Shown here: positions 6,184 to 61,825 of the stretch, in pieces
Layout of the letters: every line of letters begins with the position of its first letter
Position numbering within the stretch: the stretch's first letter is position 1
Assembly (NCBI GenBank): GCA_028690445.1
Contig: JAQVBE010000013.1
Span: forward strand, 1-64,000
Origin: Aliarcobacter sp.
GTDB taxonomy: Bacteria; Campylobacterota; Campylobacteria; Campylobacterales; Arcobacteraceae
DNA length: 64,000 bases
Direction: 5' to 3'
Translations under genes and position numbers: made by a program
The notes under the pieces: generated by a model
Told to the model about the DNA's origin: nothing
What the model saw: only the letters and a program-made list of their open reading frames with translations
The model's database searches: none

Positions 6184-7810
6184 TCGATAAATCAATTCTA
6201 TTTTCACTGTTTAAGTAATTATTATAAATATAATAATTAGCTAATACTTTTTTCCCATATTCTCTTGTTTCAGCAAAAGAGATTAATTCCATACTTAAAA
6301 AAGGTTCAAATCTGTTTTTTTTAGCAAATAGACCTTTTTTTAGTTGAGTTTTCGTATATCCAGCTCCACTATTATACGCATAAGCCATAAATAAGGGATT
6401 ATTTTTAAACTGTTTTATTAAATCATCTAAATGATAACTTCCGTATCTTATATTGATATTTGGAATAAATTGTTCATAAACATTGTAGTTTTCATTTAGT
6501 TTTTTTGCAATATCTGATGATAAAAATGGCATGATTTGCATTACACCTTGAGCAGATGAAAATGAAATAGATGAAGGTATAAAATGACTTTCTTGTCTTG
6601 CTATTGAATAAATCAATACTTGTTTTTCTACATCATAATTTTTTATTATGTTTCTATAAGGTGTAATAAAATATTGTTTTTTGTATTTAGTGAATCTTTC
6701 TAAAATAAAAGCATGATGAACTAAAGTATTTTCATCTGAGAATAAATTTTCATATTTTTGCAGTTTTTGTTCATCAAAATTCTTTTTAGTATCATCTAAA
6801 ACTTTCATCCATTCAAAAGGGTCATAAATATTAAATGATGATTTTGTATTTTTTAATGGAATAGAATACTCAATGTTATCAATTTGTAAATTAAGTAACT
6901 CTTTTGCATATAATGAATAAATATTATTATCCCAACTTAAAGCTAATTCTTCAAGATATAATTGATTTTGTGTTAATAAATAGAGCCAATATAGTGATTT
7001 ATCTTTATGTGTTCTTAAATAAGATTTCTTATTTGCTTCATTAAAAAACTTTAATGCAATATTTAAATTGTTGTTATTTACAGCATTAATTCCTAATGAA
7101 AATAAGTTTTCAGAATTCATTTGAGGATTATTTTCTATTGTTAAGAGAGATTTTTGTAAATTAACTAAGCTTTTATCATAAATTACATATCGAAGAAATC
7201 TTTCAAAATTTTTACTTTGTGCAATCTTATTTATCAATTCTTCATTTAAAAATTTGTTAAAAAAATTGCTTCTATATTCTTTATTTAAATCAAAAAATAA
7301 TCTAAAGAATCTATCCATATCTGAATTAATCAAAGAATTAAAAGGGTTGTTCGATGCAATTACTTGTAAATCTTTTTTTAAAGTAGGGTAAGAGTCAAGT
7401 TTACTAATAAAAAAGTTTAAATCATTTTTTGAAATTTCTGTAGCTTCAATTAAAGATAATCCTAAAGCAATACATTTTGAATCTTCTTTTTTTAACTGTT
7501 CAATTGAAGCTCGATAACATCTTAATTCTTCAGGTGGTAAAGTCTTAAATTTTTTATTATAAGCTTTTTTAACAACAGAGTTTGATTCATTAGCCATATC
7601 ATAAGCTATTTTTGCATCTTCAATTGAAATATCATCCTGTTCCAAATATTGAAGAATAAAAAAATCTTTAGCAGTAGATTTAGGTTTCTGTTCAAGCCAT
7701 TCAAGAGTAACTTTAAAATCTTCTTTAAACATATCTGTAGTGTTTATCGAGGCACTTACAGATATATTAAATACTAAAATTATACAAATACTAAATAAAA
7801 GTTTTTTCAT
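6152..7810 (-). CDS. slt: Soluble lytic murein transglycosylase
   Basis: This 552-aa exported protein cleaves peptidoglycan glycan strands, leaving 1,6-anhydro ends. A signal peptide occupies about the first 20 residues. A long helical superhelix region follows, and the C-terminal SLT domain starts near residue 400: the catalytic glutamate is in SIARQESHF, followed by SSAQGVMQIMP and MAYAYNSGAGYT. The order superhelix-SLT is that of E. coli Slt70, although the protein is shorter. It sits in the conserved cluster with the YggT and gltX genes, 15 bases after the YggT gene. Confidence 0.92.
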   Translation of the reverse strand: MKKLLFSICIILVFNISVSASINTTDMFKEDFKVTLEWLEQKPKSTAKDFFILQYLEQDDISIEDAKIAYDMANESNSVVKKAYNKKFKTLPPEELRCYRASIEQLKKEDSKCIALGLSLIEATEISKNDLNFFISKLDSYPTLKKDLQVIASNNPFNSLINSDMDRFFRLFFDLNKEYRSNFFNKFLNEELINKIAQSKNFERFLRYVIYDKSLVNLQKSLLTIENNPQMNSENLFSLGINAVNNNNLNIALKFFNEANKKSYLRTHKDKSLYWLYLLTQNQLYLEELALSWDNNIYSLYAKELLNLQIDNIEYSIPLKNTKSSFNIYDPFEWMKVLDDTKKNFDEQKLQKYENLFSDENTLVHHAFILERFTKYKKQYFITPYRNIIKNYDVEKQVLIYSIARQESHFIPSSISFSSAQGVMQIMPFLSSDIAKKLNENYNVYEQFIPNINIRYGSYHLDDLIKQFKNNPLFMAYAYNSGAGYTKTQLKKGLFAKKNRFEPFLSMELISFAETREYGKKVLANYYIYNNYLNSENRIDLSTIFQNLIEPN

Positions 7811-49166: not shown

Positions 49167-49936
49167 TATAAGCTCCCTTTAGGCTCTAAATAGTTAATAA
49201 TTTGCTCCAATTGAGTACTATTAGCTTTTTTTTGTATTTCTTTTAAATGCCAAATAAAACTCCAATCACCACAAGACTTGAATATTTCCTGTGCATTAAA
49301 GTTCTTATCATTTCCCTCTGAAATCGTTAAATCTTTAGTTTGAGTGTTTTGGGCAAAAACTACACAAGGAGCTTGAGTAATATTATATTTTCTAAAAAGA
49401 AGTGGATCTATTATTATATTTGGATTGATTTCATTGTTTTTATCATATTGTTTTATTTTTAAAACAAATTCAGCCGTTGGAGCTATTTTTGAACAATTAC
49501 CACCTATACAACCTCTTAAAACCATACTAGTATTAATAAGTTTTTTATTGTGTATTAATTTTCCATAAGTATGCCATATATCAAAAGGTACACTTTCACT
49601 CATAAAAATATAAATTCTATTATTTAAAATAAAATCTTTCAGATTTATTTCTTTTTGTATTTTCAAACCATTTTCCATCGTAAAATTTTTTAGTTCTACT
49701 TTTTCTCCATGTATTCTTCTGCTTTCTATGTCAACATTTTTTAAAGCACTTTTATAAATTTCAGAAATACTATCATTAAATTTTTCTTTGTCTATATTTT
49801 TCTGGATAGGCTCTAAGTTAATATCTTGAGCCTTTATAAAAGCATTATTTTCTAACTCTTTTACAATATCAAATTTGTCAGCTAATAAAAAACTAGTTGA
49901 CAATAATCCAACTAATAATAATTTGTTATAAAGCAC
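49166..49936 (-). CDS. trbC: F-type pilus assembly protein TrbC
   Basis: This 256-aa exported protein has a signal peptide (LLLVGLLSTSFLLAD) and a C-terminal thioredoxin-like TrbC domain. The latter is recognised by FMSESVPFDIWHTYGKL, SMVLRGCIGGN and IIIDPLLFRKYNITQAPCVV, where F-type TrbC/TraW C-domains carry VLRG and IDPxLFxxYxIxxxP. TrbC is needed for early pilus assembly. The start is GTG at 49936 behind AAGGA, overlapping the end of traU by 11 bases. It ends on the first base of the traG start. Confidence 0.85.
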   Translation of the reverse strand: MLYNKLLLVGLLSTSFLLADKFDIVKELENNAFIKAQDINLEPIQKNIDKEKFNDSISEIYKSALKNVDIESRRIHGEKVELKNFTMENGLKIQKEINLKDFILNNRIYIFMSESVPFDIWHTYGKLIHNKKLINTSMVLRGCIGGNCSKIAPTAEFVLKIKQYDKNNEINPNIIIDPLLFRKYNITQAPCVVFAQNTQTKDLTISEGNDKNFNAQEIFKSCGDWSFIWHLKEIQKKANSTQLEQIINYLEPKGSL

Positions 49937-50957
49937 AACAATTCCTTTTTTTATAAGTTATAATAGACCATACATGAGAATTAATAACTGGTACATCTAG
50001 CCCAGGTGACCAAATCATTCCTGTTCTGCCAATAGGTATTCTAAATGGATGTGTCATTAATGGAAAAACAGGATACATGGTATATTGACTTTTTCTCATA
50101 ATAGGCATTGGATATTTTCCACAAAGACCCAAATCACCAATACTCCCCCAGAGCATAAACTGCCTATGAAGCTTAAATAATGTTTTAGAAGCTATAGACA
50201 TAGCTGCTTCAGGTGAAGAAACTCCACTTGTTGACTTTGTAAGCGGAAATGTTTGATTCCAACTACCAAAGCACCAATAAAGAGGATCTAAAGGAAAGCC
50301 TATTTGTGATGTTACAGCATCTGGAATACAAGCAAATTGAGCTATTGGATTTGCAAATAAAAATGCATCTGGATTTACTACAATAGACCACATATCATTT
50401 TGCCACAATGGATCAATAGTTGACAAATAGGCTATATCTATACTTCCATCTAGGTCCATACATAATATATCGAGAAAAAGACTAAGCATTTTAAACAAAG
50501 GGTATTTTATATAGGTAATTTGATACGATTCTTTATTTTGAGTATTAGATTTATTTATTTCTTGAAATGAACTTCCTGCAACAACTCCGATTGGCAAACT
50601 CATACCTAGTGTAGGAACACAATTAGGTATACTTGAAACATCAATTAAAGCATTTGGCTCCCACAATTCTATAGGAATACCTATTCTTGGAAAAGGTGTA
50701 GGACAATAACAAATAGGTGAAGATTTACCAGAAATATCTTCTAGCCCCATTGATGGAGTAATTGATACACCTGCAATTTTTATTGGTAATATATTATAAA
50801 TAGTCGTAATAGTATTCTTAAGTATAGTAACAGCACTTGTAGGACCACCAATTGAAGCATTACAAGCTGCAACAGCAGCTGGTGTTCCAACTGCATTTGC
50901 GTTTGTGTATAAACTCAATAAAAAGGCTAAACTAATTATTATTTTTTTAATCATCAT
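49926..50957 (-). CDS. traU: Conjugative transfer protein TraU
   Basis: About 343 aa, exported (IIISLAFLLSLYTNANA). TraU is a periplasmic, Cys-rich protein needed for DNA transfer. Typical features are multiple cysteines (ICYCPTPFPRIGIPIELWEP, LDILCMDLDGSIDIAYLSTIDP, WCFGSWN, GLCGKYPMPIMRKSQY) and the C-terminal IGRTGMIWSPG. The start at 50957 is chosen because GAAGAGG lies just upstream; an in-frame TTG at 50981 would add eight residues without a site. It overlaps the end of traW. Confidence 0.92.
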   Translation of the reverse strand: MMIKKIIISLAFLLSLYTNANAVGTPAAVAACNASIGGPTSAVTILKNTITTIYNILPIKIAGVSITPSMGLEDISGKSSPICYCPTPFPRIGIPIELWEPNALIDVSSIPNCVPTLGMSLPIGVVAGSSFQEINKSNTQNKESYQITYIKYPLFKMLSLFLDILCMDLDGSIDIAYLSTIDPLWQNDMWSIVVNPDAFLFANPIAQFACIPDAVTSQIGFPLDPLYWCFGSWNQTFPLTKSTSGVSSPEAAMSIASKTLFKLHRQFMLWGSIGDLGLCGKYPMPIMRKSQYTMYPVFPLMTHPFRIPIGRTGMIWSPGLDVPVINSHVWSIITYKKRNCCAL

Positions 50958-51567
50958 CAACCAATACCTCTTCAATAGCAATTCTTTTTTTCTCCTTGTC
51001 TATGTAAATGATAGAAACTGTATGTTCAACTTGAAATTTATCTTTCATTTCTGTTGTTAAAAAATAAACTTTTGAGTTAAAATCTGTTTGCTTTAAATCT
51101 TTATTTTTACACCCTGAATTTACGAGCATATAATCTTTAAGATTTTGCTCATAATCTTCAATTAATTTCTTTACATATTTTGATTCATTGTTGTCACAAG
51201 GATTAAAAACGATAAAATCAGGAGGCATAATATTCATATAATCAATAGGATTGAATGTATATCCTTTTTTATATAACACACCCTCCTGTTTACCAAATCG
51301 GTTGTATTTTGGTATATCTTTATCAAGAGTATAAGATGGGTCTATGTATTTAATTCTATTTATTTTAGCTTTTGAAACTATTTCACCTGTTATATTTTCA
51401 ATCTTTTCAACTATTATTTTCTTTTGCTCTTCCATTTTTCTTTCTATTTCAGGGGCTTTGTTTTCAATTTCTGAAATCAAATCTTGTTCTATAATTTCAT
51501 AAGTATTATTTGAAAAAGCATAAAGTGTTAATACTGTTATACTTAGTACAATTTTCTTTAATCTCAT
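50947..51567 (-). CDS. traW: Conjugative transfer protein TraW
   Basis: A 206-aa exported protein (signal peptide IVLSITVLTLYAFS). The N-terminal half is coiled (EIENKAPEIERKMEEQKKII). The TraW motif YTLDKDIPKYNRFGKQEG followed by YKKGYTFNPIDYMNI is clear at about 79-110, with PFD-like positions replaced by PPDFIVFNPCD. TraW acts with TrbC and TraU in pilus assembly in the periplasm. It overlaps traU by 11 bases and follows the signal-peptidase gene by 17. Confidence 0.88.
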   Translation of the reverse strand: MRLKKIVLSITVLTLYAFSNNTYEIIEQDLISEIENKAPEIERKMEEQKKIIVEKIENITGEIVSKAKINRIKYIDPSYTLDKDIPKYNRFGKQEGVLYKKGYTFNPIDYMNIMPPDFIVFNPCDNNESKYVKKLIEDYEQNLKDYMLVNSGCKNKDLKQTDFNSKVYFLTTEMKDKFQVEHTVSIIYIDKEKKRIAIEEVLVDDD

Positions 51568-51584: not shown

Positions 51585-52079
51585 TTAGAAAAATGGTTTA
51601 GCTTTTCTTAATATTTGAGATTTATCAATAAATCCAAAATATTTACTGTCATAGCTTAAAATATGTTCACCTGAAACAAAATATTTATCTTTTGGAATAA
51701 TTCCATTAAATATAAAATTCTCTACAGGTTTATGTTCTCCATCAAAATAACTTGCTGTACCTATATAATTTTCATTACAAAAATAGTCTCTATTTTTAAC
51801 TTTTAAAAAATCACCTTCTTTACAAACTATTTTTTTTAAATATTTTATGTCAGAATTATTCATGTATTTATTTTTTGGAGGATTAAATAATATATAATTA
51901 GTATTTATTGTTAAATCACTATATGTAATCCAAACTTTTTGTGGCAAACTTTCTTGTTGTGTTATATCAATTCTTATAGGCATTTTTTCATATAAAAGGG
52001 GAATTATAAACAGTAATCCAATAAGCAAGTAAAATAACTTACTTTTAAAAATTACTTCAATATTACTTTTAGTTAACAT
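51585..52079 (-). CDS. TraF-type S26 signal peptidase of the conjugation system
   Basis: The 164-aa membrane protein has one N-terminal hydrophobic segment (FYLLIGLLFIIPLLY). It then shows the S26 pattern: Ser in ITQQESLPQKVW (nucleophile), Lys in LKKIVCKEGD (general base) and a C-terminal strand with KYFVSGEHILSYDSKYFG. In related F-type systems (for example TrhF of R27/SXT) such a peptidase sits between trbI and traW and may mature the pilin. It overlaps trbI by 11 bases. Confidence 0.85.
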   Translation of the reverse strand: MLTKSNIEVIFKSKLFYLLIGLLFIIPLLYEKMPIRIDITQQESLPQKVWITYSDLTINTNYILFNPPKNKYMNNSDIKYLKKIVCKEGDFLKVKNRDYFCNENYIGTASYFDGEHKPVENFIFNGIIPKDKYFVSGEHILSYDSKYFGFIDKSQILRKAKPFF

Positions 52080-52422
52080 AATTTTTCACAGCTTGAGTAA
52101 TAGAAATAAAATTATTTTTATTTGTTTTAACAACTGCTTCCTCAATAAGTAAAATATCTTTTCCATTAGAAAAATAATCTAAAGCATTTTGTATTTTTAA
52201 CATCCTTTCTTCTACTTTTTTTAAATATTCTTCTTGTGAAAGTTTGCCATCTAAAAATTTTTGATATTCATCATCATTTTCATCATTTATTACTGACATC
52301 ATTGATACGGTTTTTACTTTTGGTATAAAATACTTATCTAAGATATATATAATTGCAAAACTTGAGGCTACAGAAATAAAAAACATTACAGCTAATATCA
52401 CTATCCAATCATTTCTTTTCAT
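52069..52422 (-). CDS. trbI: F-type TrbI-like inner-membrane protein
   Basis: A 117-aa protein with one N-terminal transmembrane helix (WIVILAVMFFISVASSFAIIY) and a periplasmic helical domain ending ILLIEEAVVKTNKN, ISITQAVKNYV. F TrbI is 128 aa with the same layout and affects pilus retraction. The position between traC and the peptidase/traW genes is that of trbI in F. The family name matches the F-plasmid gene, not the VirB10-type TrbI. Confidence 0.72.
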   Translation of the reverse strand: MKRNDWIVILAVMFFISVASSFAIIYILDKYFIPKVKTVSMMSVINDENDDEYQKFLDGKLSQEEYLKKVEERMLKIQNALDYFSNGKDILLIEEAVVKTNKNNFISITQAVKNYVN

Positions 52423-52436
52423 CTTTATCTTTCCTT

Positions 52437-55019
52437 TTATCTTTGGGTGTTTTTTTTAGAGTATTCAAGTGCTTTTACAGCTTCAAGTCTTGTATATCCT
52501 TGCTCAACAAATGAATTTATTATCATTCTATCTTCGGCATTTGTAAACAACATTGCTTGTAAAAATTTATTTAGAACAATTCTTGCTTTTGCTCTAAATT
52601 TATCAGTTATTACATATACTTCGCCATACTCTCCATCAACGGGAGCTAAACTATCAAATATTGAATATTCATAATCTGTCATTGGATACAATCCCGATTG
52701 TTTTATTTTTTCTCTTGATGTTGATTTTTGCATTAAAAAGAAATTGTAATAACTGTTATCAATTATTACTCTTCCTGCTTTTGAATACGAACCTCCATCT
52801 CCTAACAAATCTTCATAAGATTGAGTACCCACTATCATAGAAGCCCCATGCTTTCTAAATCTTCTATATGCTTGTTCAATAAACATTTCTATATGCTCAG
52901 ATTTTCCTAAAAATTTATGTGCTTCATCCATAATTACAATATTCTTTTTGTCTTGGTTTGCTTTGTTTAGTTCTGCTAGATATATCTCTTTTGAAATTTG
53001 AAATGTTAAAACCATTAGTACTGGATTTAGTAAATCTGGCATCATTTCCAATTGTCCACATTCTAAAACAATTAAATCTTTTTCAAAAGAAACTGATGAC
53101 TTTCCATTTAAAACTTTGCCGTAGAGCTTTCCTGTTGAGAACAAACTTAAGTGACTAATAAAATCTCTAACTCTTGAATCTTGAATATTTTCATTTATAA
53201 TTTCCAATTCTTTAATAATAGAGTCCACACAGCTATCAATACCATGTAAATCATAACTTTTTTCAATTGCATCGTTTAGATGAAGCTTCATTAGTTTTTC
53301 CCATTCATCTGATAGGTTTTTAGATTTTGGCAACCCTATTAAAAGATATAAAGAAACAATAAATTCCATATATTCATCTAGCATTTCTTTAGTAGTTATT
53401 GATGTAAAAGGATTTAAAGAAACAGGATCGTTCTTATCAAATTCAATGTATTGACCACCAAAGGATTCACACATATTTTTATATGAACCTCCAATATCAA
53501 TAATCCAAATTTTATTGTTTGCTATGTAATAATTTAAAGCTAACCATTGTAACCATACAGATTTTCCTGAACCTGTCATTCCAATAGTAAAAGCATTAAA
53601 TCCACCTGCTTTGTTTGCAAATAAATCCAAACCAAACAATTGACCTTTAGAAGATATAAGAGGTACTTTGATTTTTTGCCCCAAAAACTCGCCACACACA
53701 GGCATTAATTCTGCAATATTTTCTGCAAAAACAATTCTTCCTCTTTCATTACCTAAAAATTGCTGTACATAGCTGTCATATCCTAATGGAAGCATTGACA
53801 ATAATGATGGTAAAACTACATAATTATCTTCTTCTAATCCAAAACTTAGAGTTTTAAAATAGGCTTTTGTTCTACCAAAAGCATTATTAACTTGTTCACT
53901 AGTATCACCATATATTGCTATTTGCATTGTAAAATAATATGGGATAGAACCTTTTTGAAGTTTTTCCATTCCATAGTTCAAATCTTTATGAATTAGTTTT
54001 AATTTAGGAAATAAAGAATAAGGCATTTGTTGTGAATTAGTAGCTGCTGCTGATCTAAATATTTTTTCTTTTCCATCTTTATCATTTAATTTTTTAATGT
54101 TCATTGAAATTATAAAAGGTGTAGAATGATTTTGATTGGTTAAGATATTGCCACTATATTTGATTATATCTCCTAGTTTCCAATCCTCTGGATATTCTTT
54201 AACACTTAAAGTTTTTATATATTTCTTATCACAAACAATTTCTTTACTTTTTACCTCTACTGTATTATCGTTAGCAAATAAAAAATTATTAAAATCAGAA
54301 CCATCCCATTTTGGAGTATCTCTAAAATCATGATTTTGATTTAATACTTCATAAAAGAATTTTATTAGTTTATTTGGTTTTATATGTTCTGGCATTAATC
54401 CAGCTTGTCTTAAAGAACCTGCAAGTTGTGATTTTATTGTTAACAAATCTAAATATTTTTTTCTTAATTCGTAATTATTTATTTTTCTATCATTCTCAAC
54501 ATCTTTAGCCAAGTTTTCTTTTTTAAAGATTTTAGAAAATGATTTTGTATTTAGTTTAAAAATATCGCCAAATAGAGAAGTAGTGTTTTCCTTGCCACCT
54601 ATTTTTACTGTTAGTATAAGTCTAAAATTCCTTAGTGGTGAATTGTAAGTAGCTGTAATATCTTCTTTTACTTTTTTTTCTAAAAAAGTTTTATAGGTTT
54701 TAGTTAATTCTTTTGCTAAAGGCTCATTTCTAGTATTTAAATGCTCCCATGAATCAACCATATCAGTTACATTAGGGCTACCAAAAAGTAGAACTTGCAC
54801 ATAAGCATTTTGAGGCAATACTTGTAGTGCAGATAACAATGAATTTACACTGTTTTCGCTTGAATAAATTAGAGGACTACAATCATATATTAAGCCAAAT
54901 CCCCCATCATTGGTTATCCATATTTTATTTTTATTGTCATAATCAATAATAGGAAGATAATCTGTAATCTTCTCTCTATCATACATTTTTGACCATTCTC
55001 CTAAAGATAAATTGCTCAT
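52437..55019 (-). CDS. traC: TraC (VirB4-type) T4SS ATPase
   Basis: This 860-aa cytoplasmic ATPase energises pilus assembly. Walker A is GMTGSGKSVW (about residues 477-486) and Walker B is NIVIMDEAHKF (about 695-705). IWIIDIGGSYKNMCESFGGQ and IVGTQSYEDLLGD are typical TraC segments. The N-terminal half is the VirB4 substrate-binding region (FGLIYDCSPLIYSSENSV). The length is near that of F TraC (875 aa). It is 12 bases after the second traV-like gene. Confidence 0.95.
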   Translation of the reverse strand: MSNLSLGEWSKMYDREKITDYLPIIDYDNKNKIWITNDGGFGLIYDCSPLIYSSENSVNSLLSALQVLPQNAYVQVLLFGSPNVTDMVDSWEHLNTRNEPLAKELTKTYKTFLEKKVKEDITATYNSPLRNFRLILTVKIGGKENTTSLFGDIFKLNTKSFSKIFKKENLAKDVENDRKINNYELRKKYLDLLTIKSQLAGSLRQAGLMPEHIKPNKLIKFFYEVLNQNHDFRDTPKWDGSDFNNFLFANDNTVEVKSKEIVCDKKYIKTLSVKEYPEDWKLGDIIKYSGNILTNQNHSTPFIISMNIKKLNDKDGKEKIFRSAAATNSQQMPYSLFPKLKLIHKDLNYGMEKLQKGSIPYYFTMQIAIYGDTSEQVNNAFGRTKAYFKTLSFGLEEDNYVVLPSLLSMLPLGYDSYVQQFLGNERGRIVFAENIAELMPVCGEFLGQKIKVPLISSKGQLFGLDLFANKAGGFNAFTIGMTGSGKSVWLQWLALNYYIANNKIWIIDIGGSYKNMCESFGGQYIEFDKNDPVSLNPFTSITTKEMLDEYMEFIVSLYLLIGLPKSKNLSDEWEKLMKLHLNDAIEKSYDLHGIDSCVDSIIKELEIINENIQDSRVRDFISHLSLFSTGKLYGKVLNGKSSVSFEKDLIVLECGQLEMMPDLLNPVLMVLTFQISKEIYLAELNKANQDKKNIVIMDEAHKFLGKSEHIEMFIEQAYRRFRKHGASMIVGTQSYEDLLGDGGSYSKAGRVIIDNSYYNFFLMQKSTSREKIKQSGLYPMTDYEYSIFDSLAPVDGEYGEVYVITDKFRAKARIVLNKFLQAMLFTNAEDRMIINSFVEQGYTRLEAVKALEYSKKNTQR

Positions 55020-55031
55020 AAAATCATCCTT

Positions 55032-55406
55032 TTACTTTAATGGGGTTAAAGTTTTTGGATTAGATTGTCTATCTTGACCATTTAGATACTCACCTAAAAT
55101 CCATCTTCCATCATCTACTTTTACAAAATGAAAATTTTCAGTTTGAAGATTCATGTCTTCGTCTACATAAGGCATCACAAGAACTCTAAGTATTTTATCT
55201 GGAGTCTTAACTGGCATTTTTGGAGAATACATTGTTTCGCTCAAAAAAGCTTTCCTCTGTTTTTCATATAAAGAATCAGCTTTTATAATTTTTTCTTGAG
55301 GAACAATTTTTCTCAGACTTGAATTATCATTATTTTGTTTTGTTGCACAACCTGTAAAAAGAAACAGTCCACTCAAAGTTGCGATTACTAATATTTGTTT
55401 TTTCAT
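55032..55406 (-). CDS. TraV C-terminal-half lipoprotein
   Basis: A 124-aa lipoprotein with its own signal peptide and lipobox (LFLFTGC, Cys about 19). The second half, MPVKTPDKILRVLVMPYVDE followed by VKVDDGRWILGEY, corresponds to the C-terminal half of TraV as found in R27/SXT-like F-type systems. The N-terminal TraV part (CSG, paired cysteines, SVSxVY) is missing here but is encoded by the preceding small gene at 55419. An AGGAGATATAAAA site precedes the ATG. Confidence 0.75.
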   Translation of the reverse strand: MKKQILVIATLSGLFLFTGCATKQNNDNSSLRKIVPQEKIIKADSLYEKQRKAFLSETMYSPKMPVKTPDKILRVLVMPYVDEDMNLQTENFHFVKVDDGRWILGEYLNGQDRQSNPKTLTPLK

Positions 55407-55418
55407 TTTTTATATCTC

Positions 55419-55598
55419 CTATCTTTGTTGTTCTAGTATAGTTATTTCATAAACATCGGATACACTTCCACAATATCCTGAACCCTTACCTGAATTACAT
55501 AATGGGTCTTCTTCGTAAGGCATAAATACTTTTCCACTACAACCCGTAAACAAATATAGAATAAATACTGTAGATATTGATATTTTTATTGTTTTCAA
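55419..55598 (-). CDS. TraV N-terminal-half small lipoprotein
   Basis: A 59-aa gene starting at TTG 55598 behind GGAGAAAA, one base after the traB stop. It has a signal peptide with lipobox (LFTGC, Cys 20), directly followed by SGKVFMPYEEDPLCNSGKGS and GYCGSVSDVYEI. The CSG start, the two spaced cysteines and the (G)CxSVSxVY end match the N-terminal half of TraV, the outer-membrane lipoprotein of the F-type core (VirB7 analogue). The frame stops 12 bases before the next lipoprotein gene, which carries the C-terminal half. Confidence 0.75.
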   Translation of the reverse strand: MKTIKISISTVFILYLFTGCSGKVFMPYEEDPLCNSGKGSGYCGSVSDVYEITILEQQR

Positions 55599-55599
55599 T

Positions 55600-56796
55600 T
55601 TAATTTTCTCCTTCAGATATTTCTTCTAATACAACAGTTTTATTAAACATCACATCCCCCTGTCTACCAACATTTATTTCAATTATTGAAAACATTTGAT
55701 CATTTAGTTTTAAATAATACTCACTAAGTTTTTTAGCACCTTCTCCAATGCCAGAATATATTCCAACTTGTGTTGCTTTGTTAGGATCTATAGTAGATGT
55801 AACCCCTAAACCAGATGTATTTACAGAAGATGAAGACTCTTTAAAAACTTGTCCCATTCCCTCAACAAATCCAGCAGCCATTGTTCTAGCTAGTATTGCT
55901 CCTTGTTTTGTAACTACTCTTCCACTTAATCCGATTTTTCCATCTTCACCAGTTACAAATCCTACTACTTCACCTTTACTTTCGTATGTTGTACCATCGT
56001 TTGCAATGCAAATCAAATTTTCAACTCTTATTATTGCTCTTTCACTTGATAACTCTCCATATCCACCTGCAGTTGCCCTACACTCTTTTATATCAGATTT
56101 ATATTTATTGGGAAGATTTGCATTATGTGTAATTCTTAAAATTACAGGATGTGGCTCATTTTTTGCATTTGCATTTGCAGGTGCATCAAGTCCATTGAGC
56201 AAAGTTGCTTTTACAAAACTTCCTGCAGGAATAGTAATTTTTTTCTTTTTCTTTTCTTTTTGTTGCTCTTTATTTTGTAATAAATCATTATCTTCAGAAT
56301 TTTGTATATTGTTATCAACTACTAAAAGATTATCTTCCACTTTTATTTCTATTTTTGAAGTTTCAGTTGTTTCATTTTGTTGACTATTTAAATTATTTTC
56401 AATTGTTTCTAAAGGAGGAATAGCTATGTCTAAGCTATTTAATATATTATTTGATGGATTATTATTTGTAAATTGTTCATTTTTTTTCTCAAATTCTTTT
56501 TTATTTTTTTCATCTAAAACTCGTATTAATTCTTTTAATTGCTTTTCTGTTTCTATTTGTTTTTGCTGAATAGAAGTTAATTCTTTTCCATAAGTTTCTT
56601 TAAATGAATCTTTTTCAATTTTGTCTGAATCAATATATTTAACTTTTGGCATTTCCAGTTGCTTTATTTCTTTTTGTTTTTGTGCATCACCACTTAGCAA
56701 AGAACTTCCCACAACAATAACGATAAATCCAGCAACTAATGCTGTTGCACTAATTAAGAGTTGTTTCTTTTTTGTTGGTTCAAATTTTTCTTTCAT
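55600..56796 (-). CDS. traB: TraB (VirB10-type) core complex protein
   Basis: This 398-aa protein spans from the inner to the outer membrane in the T4SS core. One N-terminal transmembrane helix (LLISATALVAGFIVIVVGSS) is followed by a coiled coil (about 45-115) and a charged, low-complexity linker. The VirB10-like beta-barrel domain follows (IPAGSFVKATLLNGLDAPAN, RAIIRVENLICI, GRVVTKQGAILARTMAAGFV). It overlaps traK by four bases. The length is below that of F TraB (475 aa), mainly in the linker. Confidence 0.92.
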   Translation of the reverse strand: MKEKFEPTKKKQLLISATALVAGFIVIVVGSSLLSGDAQKQKEIKQLEMPKVKYIDSDKIEKDSFKETYGKELTSIQQKQIETEKQLKELIRVLDEKNKKEFEKKNEQFTNNNPSNNILNSLDIAIPPLETIENNLNSQQNETTETSKIEIKVEDNLLVVDNNIQNSEDNDLLQNKEQQKEKKKKKITIPAGSFVKATLLNGLDAPANANAKNEPHPVILRITHNANLPNKYKSDIKECRATAGGYGELSSERAIIRVENLICIANDGTTYESKGEVVGFVTGEDGKIGLSGRVVTKQGAILARTMAAGFVEGMGQVFKESSSSVNTSGLGVTSTIDPNKATQVGIYSGIGEGAKKLSEYYLKLNDQMFSIIEINVGRQGDVMFNKTVVLEEISEGEN

Positions 56797-57692
56797 TTTA
56801 AAAATTCCTCACTAACAAACAATTCTTCAATCTTCGGATTATGCTTATCTTTTAATGCTTCTTTTTCATCCTTGTTATTTAAATCTTCTAATGATCTAAA
56901 AAAGTTTTGTTTTTTTTCTTCTATTGTAATTGGATCTGGAGTAGCGTTTGAAACAACAAACAATCTAGCTTCTTCATTTTTTTGAAGATTTAATTCAGTT
57001 AAAGAAATAGCAAGGGGATTATTTGCTACAAAATTTATAAACATTTTTTCATCTAATTCAATATTTTCTAATGCAGTTATTTTATATTCATAAATCATAT
57101 AATCATTACCTGTGTATGTTTTTATAGGTAAAAGCTCTAATTCATTGAATTTTATATATTTTGGAGGGAGTATTTTAGTTATGTAACCATCTGGTTCTTT
57201 TTCTTTGTAAACATCTTTTATAATATTTATTACAGTTTTTTCAAAAGGATTTGATTGTTCAAATCTTTTAGCTTTAATATTATTTTTTCTTGTACCATCA
57301 TCAAAAAGAAGGATTGTTTGTGCGGAAATATCTTTTGGTATTAAATTTAACGAGTATATTTTTTGATTACATTCTAAATACACATCTCTATTAAATTCAT
57401 TTATAACAGAATCAATAACAACATTGTTAGATCTTGTTATTACGGGTAATAATTTAATAAATGCATTTTCACCATCTTTTTGTATTGATATTTCTTTATC
57501 TTTAGAATATACAACCTTACCAAATTCGCCATTCTCACAAATTATTCTATTTACATCAGTTTTTGAAACATCTACAAATTTAAATGATAATGAATGTTCT
57601 ATCTTTTTTAAATTATTATCAATTATTGAATTTGCACTCAAACTTGACGCAACCAAAAATAAAGTACTAAGTAAAACTTTATTATAGAGCAT
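56793..57692 (-). CDS. traK: TraK (VirB9-type) secretin-like core protein
   Basis: A 299-aa exported protein (signal peptide LLSTLFLVASSLSA). The TraK signature FKFVDVSKTDVNRIICENGE is at about 37-56, then KVVYSKDKEISIQKDGENAF. It forms the periplasmic/outer-membrane ring with TraB and TraV. The last 70 residues are charged and variable. It is the first gene of the second tra operon, with the repeated regulatory sequence (57702-57792) directly upstream. Confidence 0.9.
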   Translation of the reverse strand: MLYNKVLLSTLFLVASSLSANSIIDNNLKKIEHSLSFKFVDVSKTDVNRIICENGEFGKVVYSKDKEISIQKDGENAFIKLLPVITRSNNVVIDSVINEFNRDVYLECNQKIYSLNLIPKDISAQTILLFDDGTRKNNIKAKRFEQSNPFEKTVINIIKDVYKEKEPDGYITKILPPKYIKFNELELLPIKTYTGNDYMIYEYKITALENIELDEKMFINFVANNPLAISLTELNLQKNEEARLFVVSNATPDPITIEEKKQNFFRSLEDLNNKDEKEALKDKHNPKIEELFVSEEFLK

Positions 57693-58235: not shown

Positions 58236-58805
58236 CTAATTTGAAATCAAAAACTCTGATTTAATAAAATTATTTGAATTTTCTTTCTTTGATAATTTAA
58301 TATAATTCTTAATCAATTTTTTTTTGTAAATTTTATTGTATTCAGGTGTCATAGAATGATAAGAAGCTAAAACTTCCCAACTCCATTTGTCTTTATTTAT
58401 TTTTATTTTTTCTTGAATTACTTTACATGCATTTTTGTATGAAGCATTTTTATCAAAATATGAAAACAATGGATATTTAAAACTATCATAATTAATCTGA
58501 AATAGACCAAGATCTAAATTTGTTATATTATTTCTAATTAAATCGGTTGAAATGTTTACACAATTTTGCAGATTTATACAATCTATTACCATTGTATCTT
58601 TTGTATTTCTTCCTCCAAGTGTTTTAGAAATCTTTTTAAATTTCTCTAAAGTAGAAGATTGATTTGTTCTTATTAAAAAAGGATAAGAGGCTTCATTTTC
58701 AGTAATTTTTACAGTTTTTAATAAAATATCAGGAACAATACATCTCTCATTTGCATTAATTAACTGAACTAAAACAAAAAGAAATGATATTGTTCTGAAC
58801 AACAT
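58236..58805 (-). CDS. VirB1-like lytic transglycosylase of the conjugation system
   Basis: A 189-aa exported protein (signal peptide FRTISFLFVLVQLINA). It has the SLT fold outline: the catalytic Glu probably in KITENEASYPF (about 36), then ITNLDLGLFQINYDSF and WEVLASYHSMTPEYNKIYKKK, as in TrbN/VirB1-type enzymes that locally open peptidoglycan for the T4SS. The Glu environment is less conserved than in housekeeping Slt. It overlaps traE by one base. Confidence 0.8.
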   Translation of the reverse strand: MLFRTISFLFVLVQLINANERCIVPDILLKTVKITENEASYPFLIRTNQSSTLEKFKKISKTLGGRNTKDTMVIDCINLQNCVNISTDLIRNNITNLDLGLFQINYDSFKYPLFSYFDKNASYKNACKVIQEKIKINKDKWSWEVLASYHSMTPEYNKIYKKKLIKNYIKLSKKENSNNFIKSEFLISN

Positions 58806-59356
58806 TATTTACTTACCTCAAAACCTTTAATAACTAATTTTTTGTTATTAACTTTATAATTGAATATTATTTGTACCTTTTTTTCTTCAATCATAATATT
58901 TCCAGTCATTGTTTTTAAAAGTCCTTCAACAGTAAAACTATTATTTTTGTGATTCGGTAATGTTTTTGAATAATAAAAAGCTTGATATATATTATCTTTT
59001 TTTATTCTGTCTGTTTCTTTAATCAAAAAATCTTTAACTGCTTTTATTTCATCAGGTTCACTACTAAAATAACCTTGTATTGAATCAAATGATTTGTTTA
59101 CACTTGACGGACTTATTGTTAATAATGCATTGCTCAAATGTGCACCAATTTGTTCATAATAGCTAAAACTAAAAGTATCACCAACATTTTCAAACTCACT
59201 CGTTATATATGGAGGAGTAATAATAATTTTTGTATTTTTATTAGCAGTAACTAAATTTTCTATTAAATATAAATTTACAAGCACAAGAAGAAATGAAAAA
59301 ATTTTAAATAAGTCTAGTTGTCTTAGATTTCTGTTGTATTCACCGAAAAATTTCAT
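58805..59356 (-). CDS. traE: TraE (VirB5/8-like) inner-membrane protein
   Basis: The 183-aa protein has one N-terminal transmembrane helix (LFKIFSFLLVLVNLYLIENL) preceded by the basic NRNLRQLD and followed by a periplasmic domain, as in F TraE (188 aa). Features are IITPPYITSEFENVGDTFS, a region SPSSVNKSFDSIQGYFSSEP and a C-terminal beta region (VQIIFNYKVNNKKLVIKGF). It follows traL by 12 bases in the order A-L-E, as in F. Confidence 0.85.
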   Translation of the reverse strand: MKFFGEYNRNLRQLDLFKIFSFLLVLVNLYLIENLVTANKNTKIIITPPYITSEFENVGDTFSFSYYEQIGAHLSNALLTISPSSVNKSFDSIQGYFSSEPDEIKAVKDFLIKETDRIKKDNIYQAFYYSKTLPNHKNNSFTVEGLLKTMTGNIMIEEKKVQIIFNYKVNNKKLVIKGFEVSK

Positions 59357-59368
59357 ATATCCTCTTTT

Positions 59369-59647
59369 TCATCTTGTAAGTTCTCTACACCAACTCTCAG
59401 GAACTCTATTTTTTAATCCATAAAGTCCCAAATGGTATGCTAAATGTTTTTGATAACCAGCTTCCTTTTCTGAAGTAAGTTTAGTGCTTACTTTTAAAAA
59501 GATAATTCCTAAAATTAAAAACAAAAATGGATGGTCAGCTAAAACACCAAAAAAAACAAAAAATAAAACTTTCATAAAATCAGATAAATCCCACCACAAT
59601 ATTTGTGGTTCAGCATTTAAATATTTAGGTATATATCTTCCCTCCAT
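59369..59647 (-). CDS. traL: TraL pilus assembly protein
   Basis: A 92-aa membrane protein with the TraL pattern: N-terminal IPKYLNAEPQILWWDLSDF, two hydrophobic segments (MKVLFFVFFGVLADHPFLFLIL region), then KHLAYHLGLYGLKNRVPESW near the end, where F TraL has a similar YW/GL..R.P motif. Its length equals that of F TraL (91 aa). It lies 8 bases after traA, in the order expected for F-type loci. Confidence 0.88.
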   Translation of the reverse strand: MEGRYIPKYLNAEPQILWWDLSDFMKVLFFVFFGVLADHPFLFLILGIIFLKVSTKLTSEKEAGYQKHLAYHLGLYGLKNRVPESWCRELTR

Positions 59648-60214: not shown

Positions 60215-61825
60215 TTAGTTTGAAGAGCAAGTAAAATCTTTTACAGCATCTTCAACTGCACTTGCAAAACCTATTGCCATTCCAGCTGCATTCATATTTA
60301 AATTACAACTGCATACATCAAGAACTGTTTCATTGCTTTCGGTTTGGCAAAAATAATTACTATTAGCTAACTGATTACATTTTTTAAATTCATATTCAAT
60401 AGTACTAACTCCATCTTTCGTTGATGAATTTGAAGTACTATCTGTATATACTTGTGTATGAATAGTTTCTTTTTTAACCCTACAATACCTAATTTGACAA
60501 TTTTCAAACTCTCCCAAATTAATATTTTGTGAAGTCCCATTAAAATCAGTATAATTTACTGTTGAACCAGTTTTATTAACTGAATCAAATGTTCTATTAC
60601 TTTTACTAGCATCATATTGTAATGTTTGACTTCCGCAATCATAATGTCTTTTAATATAAAAATAACTATCATTTGAAGAAGAGTATATATTAGAAGAAAT
60701 TCCAGTAATGTTTGAAACTTTTGATATATTATTGCCATTTGCACAAATTTGATACTCACTATTGAATATATTACATTGAATAGGTATTGAAAGCGATGTT
60801 AATGTATTGTTTAATATCCTATCAATACAATTTCTTCCAGAACTATCACAAATTTCTTCTCTGTTTATAGAACAGCTATAATTAGCTATACAATTATCTT
60901 TCATTTCTATTTTTATATTTCCATTATCATCTAAGTAAGGTTTTTTAATTACTGTACAAACTTGAGTATTTTTTATTGAAATATTATGATTTGCACCACC
61001 ATTAATTGAATTAATAAGAGTATTATTTTGATTGCTTGTGACATAGTATAAACTATCATTCTTCTTGCCATCTTTCATTGCAACATCAGCAAGGTCTAAA
61101 GGTGGTATTGATTGAGAAGAATAATAGCTTGTTGGGTTAGTGTTCGTATAGTTATTTCCTAGATTTAAATCTTTACAACTAGTATTATTTTTAATATAAA
61201 GATAATAAGTTTTGTTGGATGAATCATAACGATTAATCCCTACTTGATAATTTGAAATTCCTGATGAACCTATTATTCCAATTATATCACCTGTTATCTT
61301 ATCAGCTATGCTTTGACTATAACCACCAAATTGACATGCATTTGTAATACAATAACATCCTCCTAATTCACTCCTTGCAACTTCAATTAATGATATTTTT
61401 TTATTTGTAGTATTGAAATTATATTTGTAATGCTTTGAGTTATTAGACTTAAATCCTCCACTGCATATATTTTCTATTCCTGAAAATATAGTTGAATAGT
61501 CATAAGAACTTGTTGCATTTAAATCTTGATTAACTTGCACATTCAATACTCCATTTGATTGTGGTTGAAAGGTTAATTTTATACCCTCATTATTTTCAGC
61601 ACAACTCTCTAATTTTGACGAAAATAATTTACTTCCATCAATAGTACTCAACTGACCACTTCCTTGCAATGGAGCAGATATATTAGAATTAATTTTACTT
61701 TTCGAGCCATATTTTGTAATAGCACTTTGTCCTGCAGAAGAACCACTATTCTTAGCATCAATTTTATCATTTGAAAAAGAAACAATTGAAAACAATATAA
61801 ACACAAATCCAATAATTTTTTTCAC
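60215..61825 (-). CDS. TraN-like cysteine-rich mating-pair protein
   Basis: A 536-aa exported protein (signal peptide GFVFILFSIVSFSN), rich in Cys, Asn and Ser. Cysteines cluster in RSELGGCYCITNACQFGG and in the C-terminal third (FCQTESNETVLDVCSCNLN). Pairing and position fit TraN, the outer-membrane adhesin that stabilises donor-recipient contacts, but the sequence is divergent from F TraN, so the name is tentative. It lies between traH and the traA operon and its stop is followed by the repeated regulatory sequence. Confidence 0.6.
   Translation of the reverse strand: MKKIIGFVFILFSIVSFSNDKIDAKNSGSSAGQSAITKYGSKSKINSNISAPLQGSGQLSTIDGSKLFSSKLESCAENNEGIKLTFQPQSNGVLNVQVNQDLNATSSYDYSTIFSGIENICSGGFKSNNSKHYKYNFNTTNKKISLIEVARSELGGCYCITNACQFGGYSQSIADKITGDIIGIIGSSGISNYQVGINRYDSSNKTYYLYIKNNTSCKDLNLGNNYTNTNPTSYYSSQSIPPLDLADVAMKDGKKNDSLYYVTSNQNNTLINSINGGANHNISIKNTQVCTVIKKPYLDDNGNIKIEMKDNCIANYSCSINREEICDSSGRNCIDRILNNTLTSLSIPIQCNIFNSEYQICANGNNISKVSNITGISSNIYSSSNDSYFYIKRHYDCGSQTLQYDASKSNRTFDSVNKTGSTVNYTDFNGTSQNINLGEFENCQIRYCRVKKETIHTQVYTDSTSNSSTKDGVSTIEYEFKKCNQLANSNYFCQTESNETVLDVCSCNLNMNAAGMAIGFASAVEDAVKDFTCSSN

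Follow-up and report, generated by a model that had tools for sequence, protein, structure and literature searches.

In the 64,000-nucleotide stretch of Aliarcobacter sp. DNA analysed in this study (the window), the interval between traB and traC holds two minus-strand open reading frames (ORFs) of 59 and 124 amino acids (aa), which share one reading frame. Profile and alignment comparisons identify the encoded proteins as homologues of opposite ends of TraV, and on these grounds the locus is considered to hold a genuine and conserved form of TraV encoded by two genes. The two genes probably specify a natural two-subunit TraV, in which, by analogy with the core complex of pED208, the rings of the complex would be built from separately counted and separately anchored subunits.

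The traB-traC locus and its two lipoprotein genes

The first of the two genes, encoding TraV-N (55419..55598, minus strand), begins with a TTG codon and specifies a 59-aa putative lipoprotein corresponding to the N-terminal (VirB7-like) part of TraV. Its lipobox (...FTGC) contains Cys20 (codon 55541-55539), two further cysteines are located at residues 34 and 43, and a ribosome-binding site, AAGGAG, is found in the upstream sequence (55608..55613, minus strand). The second gene, encoding TraV-C (55032..55406, minus strand), has an ATG start and specifies a 124-aa putative lipoprotein corresponding to the C-terminal (outer-ring belt) domain, in which a lipobox (...FTGC) containing Cys20 (codon 55349-55347) is situated behind a signal peptide of its own. 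The ribosome-binding site of TraV-C, GGAG (55416..55419, minus strand), overlaps the TAG stop codon of TraV-N (55421-55419), the first G of the former being the last base of the latter. A signal peptide and lipobox are predicted on each half, with the lipid-bearing Cys at residue 20 in both; an earlier reading of the locus from its letters and ORF translations (the sequence-only reading) had described the genes as adjacent, with a separate signal peptide, lipobox and ribosome-binding site for each, all of which was recovered here.

The surrounding genes constitute an F-type (MPF_F) set comprising traL, E, K, B, C, W and U, trbC, traH, traG and traF, among which an S26 peptidase is also encoded. 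The potential partners of TraV are retained on the minus strand, namely traK (VirB9-like; 56793..57692; PF23536, 4.3e-14; PF06586, 4.7e-11) and traB (VirB10-like; 55600..56796; PF03743, 1.9e-31), as is traC, which encodes a VirB4-like ATPase (52437..55019; TIGR02746, 3.9e-140) and provided the marker for the tree described below. Also located on this strand are traE (58805..59356; PF05309, 4.9e-28), traL (59369..59647; PF07178, 7.2e-15) and traU (49926..50981; NF010297, 1.1e-57; PF06834, 1.3e-78), the marker employed in our survey of F-type systems, while the genes in the traN position (60215-61825) and the trbI position (52069-52422) produced no Pfam matches.

When searched alone, TraV-C matched the Pfam TraV model PF09676 at 36.7 bits (cut-off 21; profile positions 58-128 of 128) and TIGR02747 at 28.6 bits, which is under the cut-off of 44.75 (profile positions 105-145 of 145). 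TraV-N alone matched no Pfam family and aligned weakly with TIGR02747 (E 0.0021, 18.8 bits, profile positions 7-53), again under the 44.75-bit equivalog cut-off. Pfam and NCBIfam profile searches yielded no better match of either half to another family, the remaining matches being weak or scattered. When the entire genome was searched in six frames with PF09676, a single match was obtained, which spans both ORFs and both stop codons (E 2.6e-12, 48.6 bits), and the rest of the assembly contained no fused TraV; the assignment of the two genes to the two halves of TraV in the sequence-only reading is upheld by these searches.

To extend the comparison to families, hand-picked representatives of the halves found were aligned, giving sets of 14 N-halves (A3) and 18 C-halves (A4, in which the L081 row starts with one extra residue), with 14 fused TraVs (A6) serving as the comparison set for both. 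Using hhalign, the N-half family aligned with residues 1-58 of the Pelobacter TraV (98.8%) and the C-half family with about residues 90-160 of fused TraV (99.3%), the signal peptide being the sole part that A3 and A4 have in common. Individually, 13 of the 14 N-halves match TIGR02747 and 14 of the 18 C-halves match PF09676 at E <= 0.1. The lipid Cys is invariant in the N-halves (14/14) and forms one of four invariant columns in the 18 C-halves, while a further Cys pair, 8-9 residues apart, is kept in all N-halves but that of Hippea (L101). Against solved structures the C-half profile identified residues 160-200 of pED208 TraV (E 8.4e-6). The N-half profile reached no TraV chain in the PDB, its one match being a chance one (E 0.73), and the N-half is therefore placed by its alignment with fused TraV.

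The predicted model of the C-half (mean pLDDT 64) is confident in its core only, where blocks within residues 71-100 reach pLDDT 82-92. Its best four Foldseek matches are all TraV chains from the outer ring of pED208 (probability 0.96-1.00, E 0.16-0.56), a Dot/Icm chain appearing at E 5.9 only, and VIA-align listed just two TraV entries, both with low scores (Z 3.1 over 46 residues, and 2.8). These structural matches, to the TraV of 7oko/7spb, cover a short stretch, and both the E-value (0.16) and Z (3.1) are weak.

Two accounts would deny that the genes are a genuine divided TraV. The C-half could belong to a distinct lipoprotein family that was recruited beside a short VirB7-like protein and merely resembles TraV; its signal peptide and following 30-100 residues have no counterpart in fused TraV, and the Pfam TraV model misses four of the 18 C-halves. 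However, the core of the C-half matches TraV in sequence and, more weakly, in predicted fold, and its gene occupies the locus position of traV, making such a recruitment highly improbable. Alternatively, as the ORFs of the window share one frame and the PF09676 match spans both, the locus might be an ordinary traV interrupted by a frameshift or nonsense mutation or by an error of assembly, perhaps rescued by read-through. The ORFs are, however, separated by two consecutive in-frame stops (TAG, then TAA), both of which any read-through to TraV-C would have to pass, and these are followed by a complete signal peptide, lipobox and ribosome-binding site. When the spacing was counted over 21 locus pairs (22 minus L089), the N and C genes were found to be adjacent or overlapping in 15, of which 13 have the halves in different frames, often with ATGA-type overlaps. 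In the other six pairs, from Campylobacter, Helicobacter and Nautiliaceae loci, they lie 448-809 nucleotides apart, and in the annotated C. upsaliensis plasmid another gene sits between the halves. The identical split is encountered in independent genomes of several phyla, and both genes are under purifying selection: dN/dS (NG86) relative to the nearest relative, L057, is 0.29 for the N half and 0.21 for the C half, compared to 0.18 for traB and 0.07 for traC. The two stops, the new signal peptide and the different frames in most relatives exclude read-through of an ordinary traV as well as frameshifting, against which the sequence-only reading had argued on the basis of the second secretion signal, and we attach next to no credence to any form of broken gene. 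As two ORFs, with a second signal peptide and two stops between them, stand in place of a single chain in which a linker joins the N- and C-domains, the locus is classed as a two-gene variant and not as an ordinary TraV.

Occurrence of split and fused TraV

TraU was detected in 29 of 397 Campylobacterota genomes, whose TraU and TraE/TraK regions were then read by profile searches of all ORFs. The traB-traV locus was readable in 19 of these 29 genomes, and all 19 loci are split with none fused; the sequence-only reading had suggested that the same division be sought in other F-type loci of this phylum. Profiles support both halves in 17 of the 19, while in G164 and G338 an N-half match is accompanied by a C-half called from position and lipobox only. 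The remaining ten genomes (G133, G154, G224, G264, G270, G298, G359, G377, G390 and G446) were unreadable for TraV and not counted; none gave a match to the C-half profile, and seven of them contain no recognisable traB or traV in the TraK or TraU region fetched. The last seven named form one family group (f13) and carry a divergent TraU-bearing system, in which traL/traK are mostly present but no traB or TraV is recognisable nearby. The split also occurs in G029 and G147, two genomes found via TraV itself, and in plasmids of Aliarcobacter cibarius, Campylobacter upsaliensis and Candidatus Manganitrophus (Nitrospirota).

Scanning genome contigs for TraB provided 51 loci, several of which are near-copies of, or the same records as, survey loci: 12 are split, three show an N-half only, 34 have one ORF and two are unmatched. 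Of the one-ORF loci, 13 are matched by both profiles and 21 by the C profile (ORF 170-275 aa). The three loci in which only the N-half is in view are L098, L102 and L103; the contig of L103, as found in G372, ends with a C-half. In Desulfurobacterium (L098) the N-half (1598-1780) follows traB with no recognisable C-half in 3 kb downstream, indicating that the two halves need not always travel together.

Split loci occur in Campylobacterales, Nautiliaceae, Hippea, Aquificota, Manganitrophus and one contig binned as Gracilibacteria, and one-ORF loci include those of Gammaproteobacteria, Thermodesulfobacteriota, two Desulfurellales and Bdellovibrio. The named Proteobacterial and Geobacterales plasmids inspected have one TraV each, with the exception of a fragmented Xanthomonas locus (L151). 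Since the split is present in every readable Campylobacterales locus and in other phyla, it represents an old trait shared by a broad branch of F-type systems, not a quirk of this element.

Several further observations were made among these loci. The two Desulfurellales loci (L110, L138) are fused whereas that of Hippea (L101) is split, so the state of TraV varies within GTDB-style Campylobacterota. The contig binned as Candidatus Gracilibacteria (L095:7124-7656) has TraV halves, the N-half being identical, and an order as in the Aliarcobacter cibarius plasmid pACIB, and is probably a misbinned plasmid. In Campylobacter (L007:6440-7351 and 7320-7802) the N-half bears a bacterial SH3 domain (PF08239) as an extension, the gene between the halves of the C. 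upsaliensis plasmid is a second SH3 gene, and the N-halves of L075, L076, L082 and L100 are also long (309-349 aa). The N-half gene is unannotated in pACIB and 'hypothetical' in Manganitrophus; annotation thus overlooks half of TraV.

Proposed arrangement of the two proteins in the core complex

In pED208, TraV is divided into an N-domain (residues 18-55), a linker (55-150) and a C-domain (150-204) (PMC8770708). In the C17 cone, residues 18-55 rest on the barrels of TraB; the linker of residues 55-150 is mostly untraced and can be deleted, and in the C13 ring 26 copies of residues 150-204 form a belt that surrounds TraK (PMC8770708). A similar layout is given in PMC8617172, with an interchain Cys27-Cys35 disulphide of TraV in the cone, and the combination of a C13 outer ring and a C17 central cone is known for pED208 only (PMC8617172, PMC8770708). 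Since the C-half matches residues 160-200 and the linker covers residues 55-150, the natural break falls in the linker; by this alignment, the site of the break is that linker which, in pED208, joins the TraV N-domain of the 17-fold cone to the C-domain of the 13-fold ring.

By analogy, traB would supply the partner of TraV-N in the central cone and traK that of TraV-C in the outer ring. TraV-N would act as a VirB7-like lipoprotein on the TraB barrels of a 17-fold central cone and may be cross-linked to its neighbours via its two extra cysteines, the conservation of this pair being as expected for cone subunits. TraV-C would form a strand-loop-strand belt clamping the TraK C-domains of a 13-fold outer ring, the lipid Cys predicted in each C-half being followed by 30 or more residues of putative tether before the core. 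As the halves are separate chains, each ring would be free to take its own copy number, and each would be fixed to the outer membrane through a lipid of its own. TraV would then no longer be a covalent bridge between the rings, which would leave the TraB linker as the only candidate for that role. It is plausible that the split would alter the construction of the core complex, as the sequence-only reading had proposed.

It could be argued that the halves bind one another after export and reconstitute an ordinary, non-covalent TraV, one N per C, with no mechanical consequence. The adjacency or overlap of the genes in most pairs would suit equal synthesis of the halves, and the pED208 linker is without a needed function (PMC8770708). 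Against this, the domains of fused TraV are placed in different rings and the accessible portions of both structural reports describe no contact between the N- and C-domains (PMC8617172, PMC8770708), the genes are well separated in the six pairs noted above, even by an intervening gene in the C. upsaliensis plasmid, and a lipid on the C-half would be superfluous in a one-to-one complex. We consider such reassembly unlikely and favour the reading that the halves are separately counted subunits of the two rings.

In the F-type core, flexible parts of TraV and TraB connect a ring of 17-fold symmetry to one of 13-fold symmetry. The pED208 authors ascribe the handling of this mismatch to an 'intraprotein symmetry alteration' in which occupancy is dynamic, and they speak against separate copy numbers (PMC8770708), a position to which split systems would, by analogy, be a natural exception. 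The same authors suggest that the outer ring is membrane-anchored by its own lipids (PMC8770708), with which the predicted lipid of the C-half fits. Systems in which TraV is cut at the ring joint offer a natural test of the mismatch models; should they transfer DNA, TraV would not be required as a covalent bridge.

The split TraV shares with TraV of F and pED208 the homology of both ends, the location within the tra operon, downstream of traL, E, K and B, the lipid Cys, the Cys pair in nearly all N-halves, and the sequence and, by a weak match, the predicted fold of the C-domain. It differs in being two polypeptides instead of one, in lacking the linker and in providing the C-domain with a signal peptide and lipobox of its own. 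TraV-N is, like VirB7 of the minimal type IV secretion systems (T4SSs) of pKM101, R388 and A. tumefaciens, a short putative lipoprotein encoded beside a VirB10 homologue and is of comparable length, but it is matched by TraV profiles and retains the pair of cysteines seen in F-type TraV; we know of no counterpart of TraV-C in minimal T4SSs. Expanded T4SSs with mismatched rings employ several lipoproteins, such as DotC, DotD and DotK in Legionella Dot/Icm and CagT in H. pylori Cag, yet none of our searches revealed homology between these and the TraV halves, a Dot/Icm chain being reached at no better than the Foldseek E of 5.9 mentioned above. TraV has been termed VirB7-like (PMC10939261), and DotC has been compared with TraV (PMC8770708). 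A search of titles and abstracts in the literature on TraV and Campylobacterota, with most subscription papers outside its scope, found no description of a split TraV.

Order of the split and fused states

The TraC tree was built from 39 rows, with R388 and F left out owing to their long branches. Split and fused loci are strongly sorted on this tree, but at least two changes of state are needed: none of 200 bootstrap trees (0%) is compatible with a single change, and placing the split rows in one group is rejected (p-AU 3e-51). The one-change history fails because the fused loci L111 and L112 nest among split loci. A quick TraB tree requires three changes; its well-supported branches alone would permit one, and it is therefore no confirmation of multiple changes.

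When the TraC tree was rooted on the VirB4 of R388, a very distant and unreliable root on a branch 6.3 long, split loci were basal in all three main groups, a topology that can be read as two fusions versus three fissions. This rooting weakly favours the split state as the earlier one. Fusion needs only a deletion, whereas fission needs a new signal peptide, although this is an argument and not evidence. The combined proposition that the rings are served by two separately counted, separately lipid-anchored proteins and that the split preceded the fused state, with the TraV of F arising later by fusion, is one that we advance tentatively and regard as rather doubtful; the partners in that fusion would have been a VirB7-like lipoprotein and an outer-ring lipoprotein.

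As regards the marker gene itself, traC was read as two ORFs in four loci (L073:6316-8846, L007:8248-9153, L156:6544-9182 and L008:4385-6866), while it is a single ORF in the close relatives L074 and L009.
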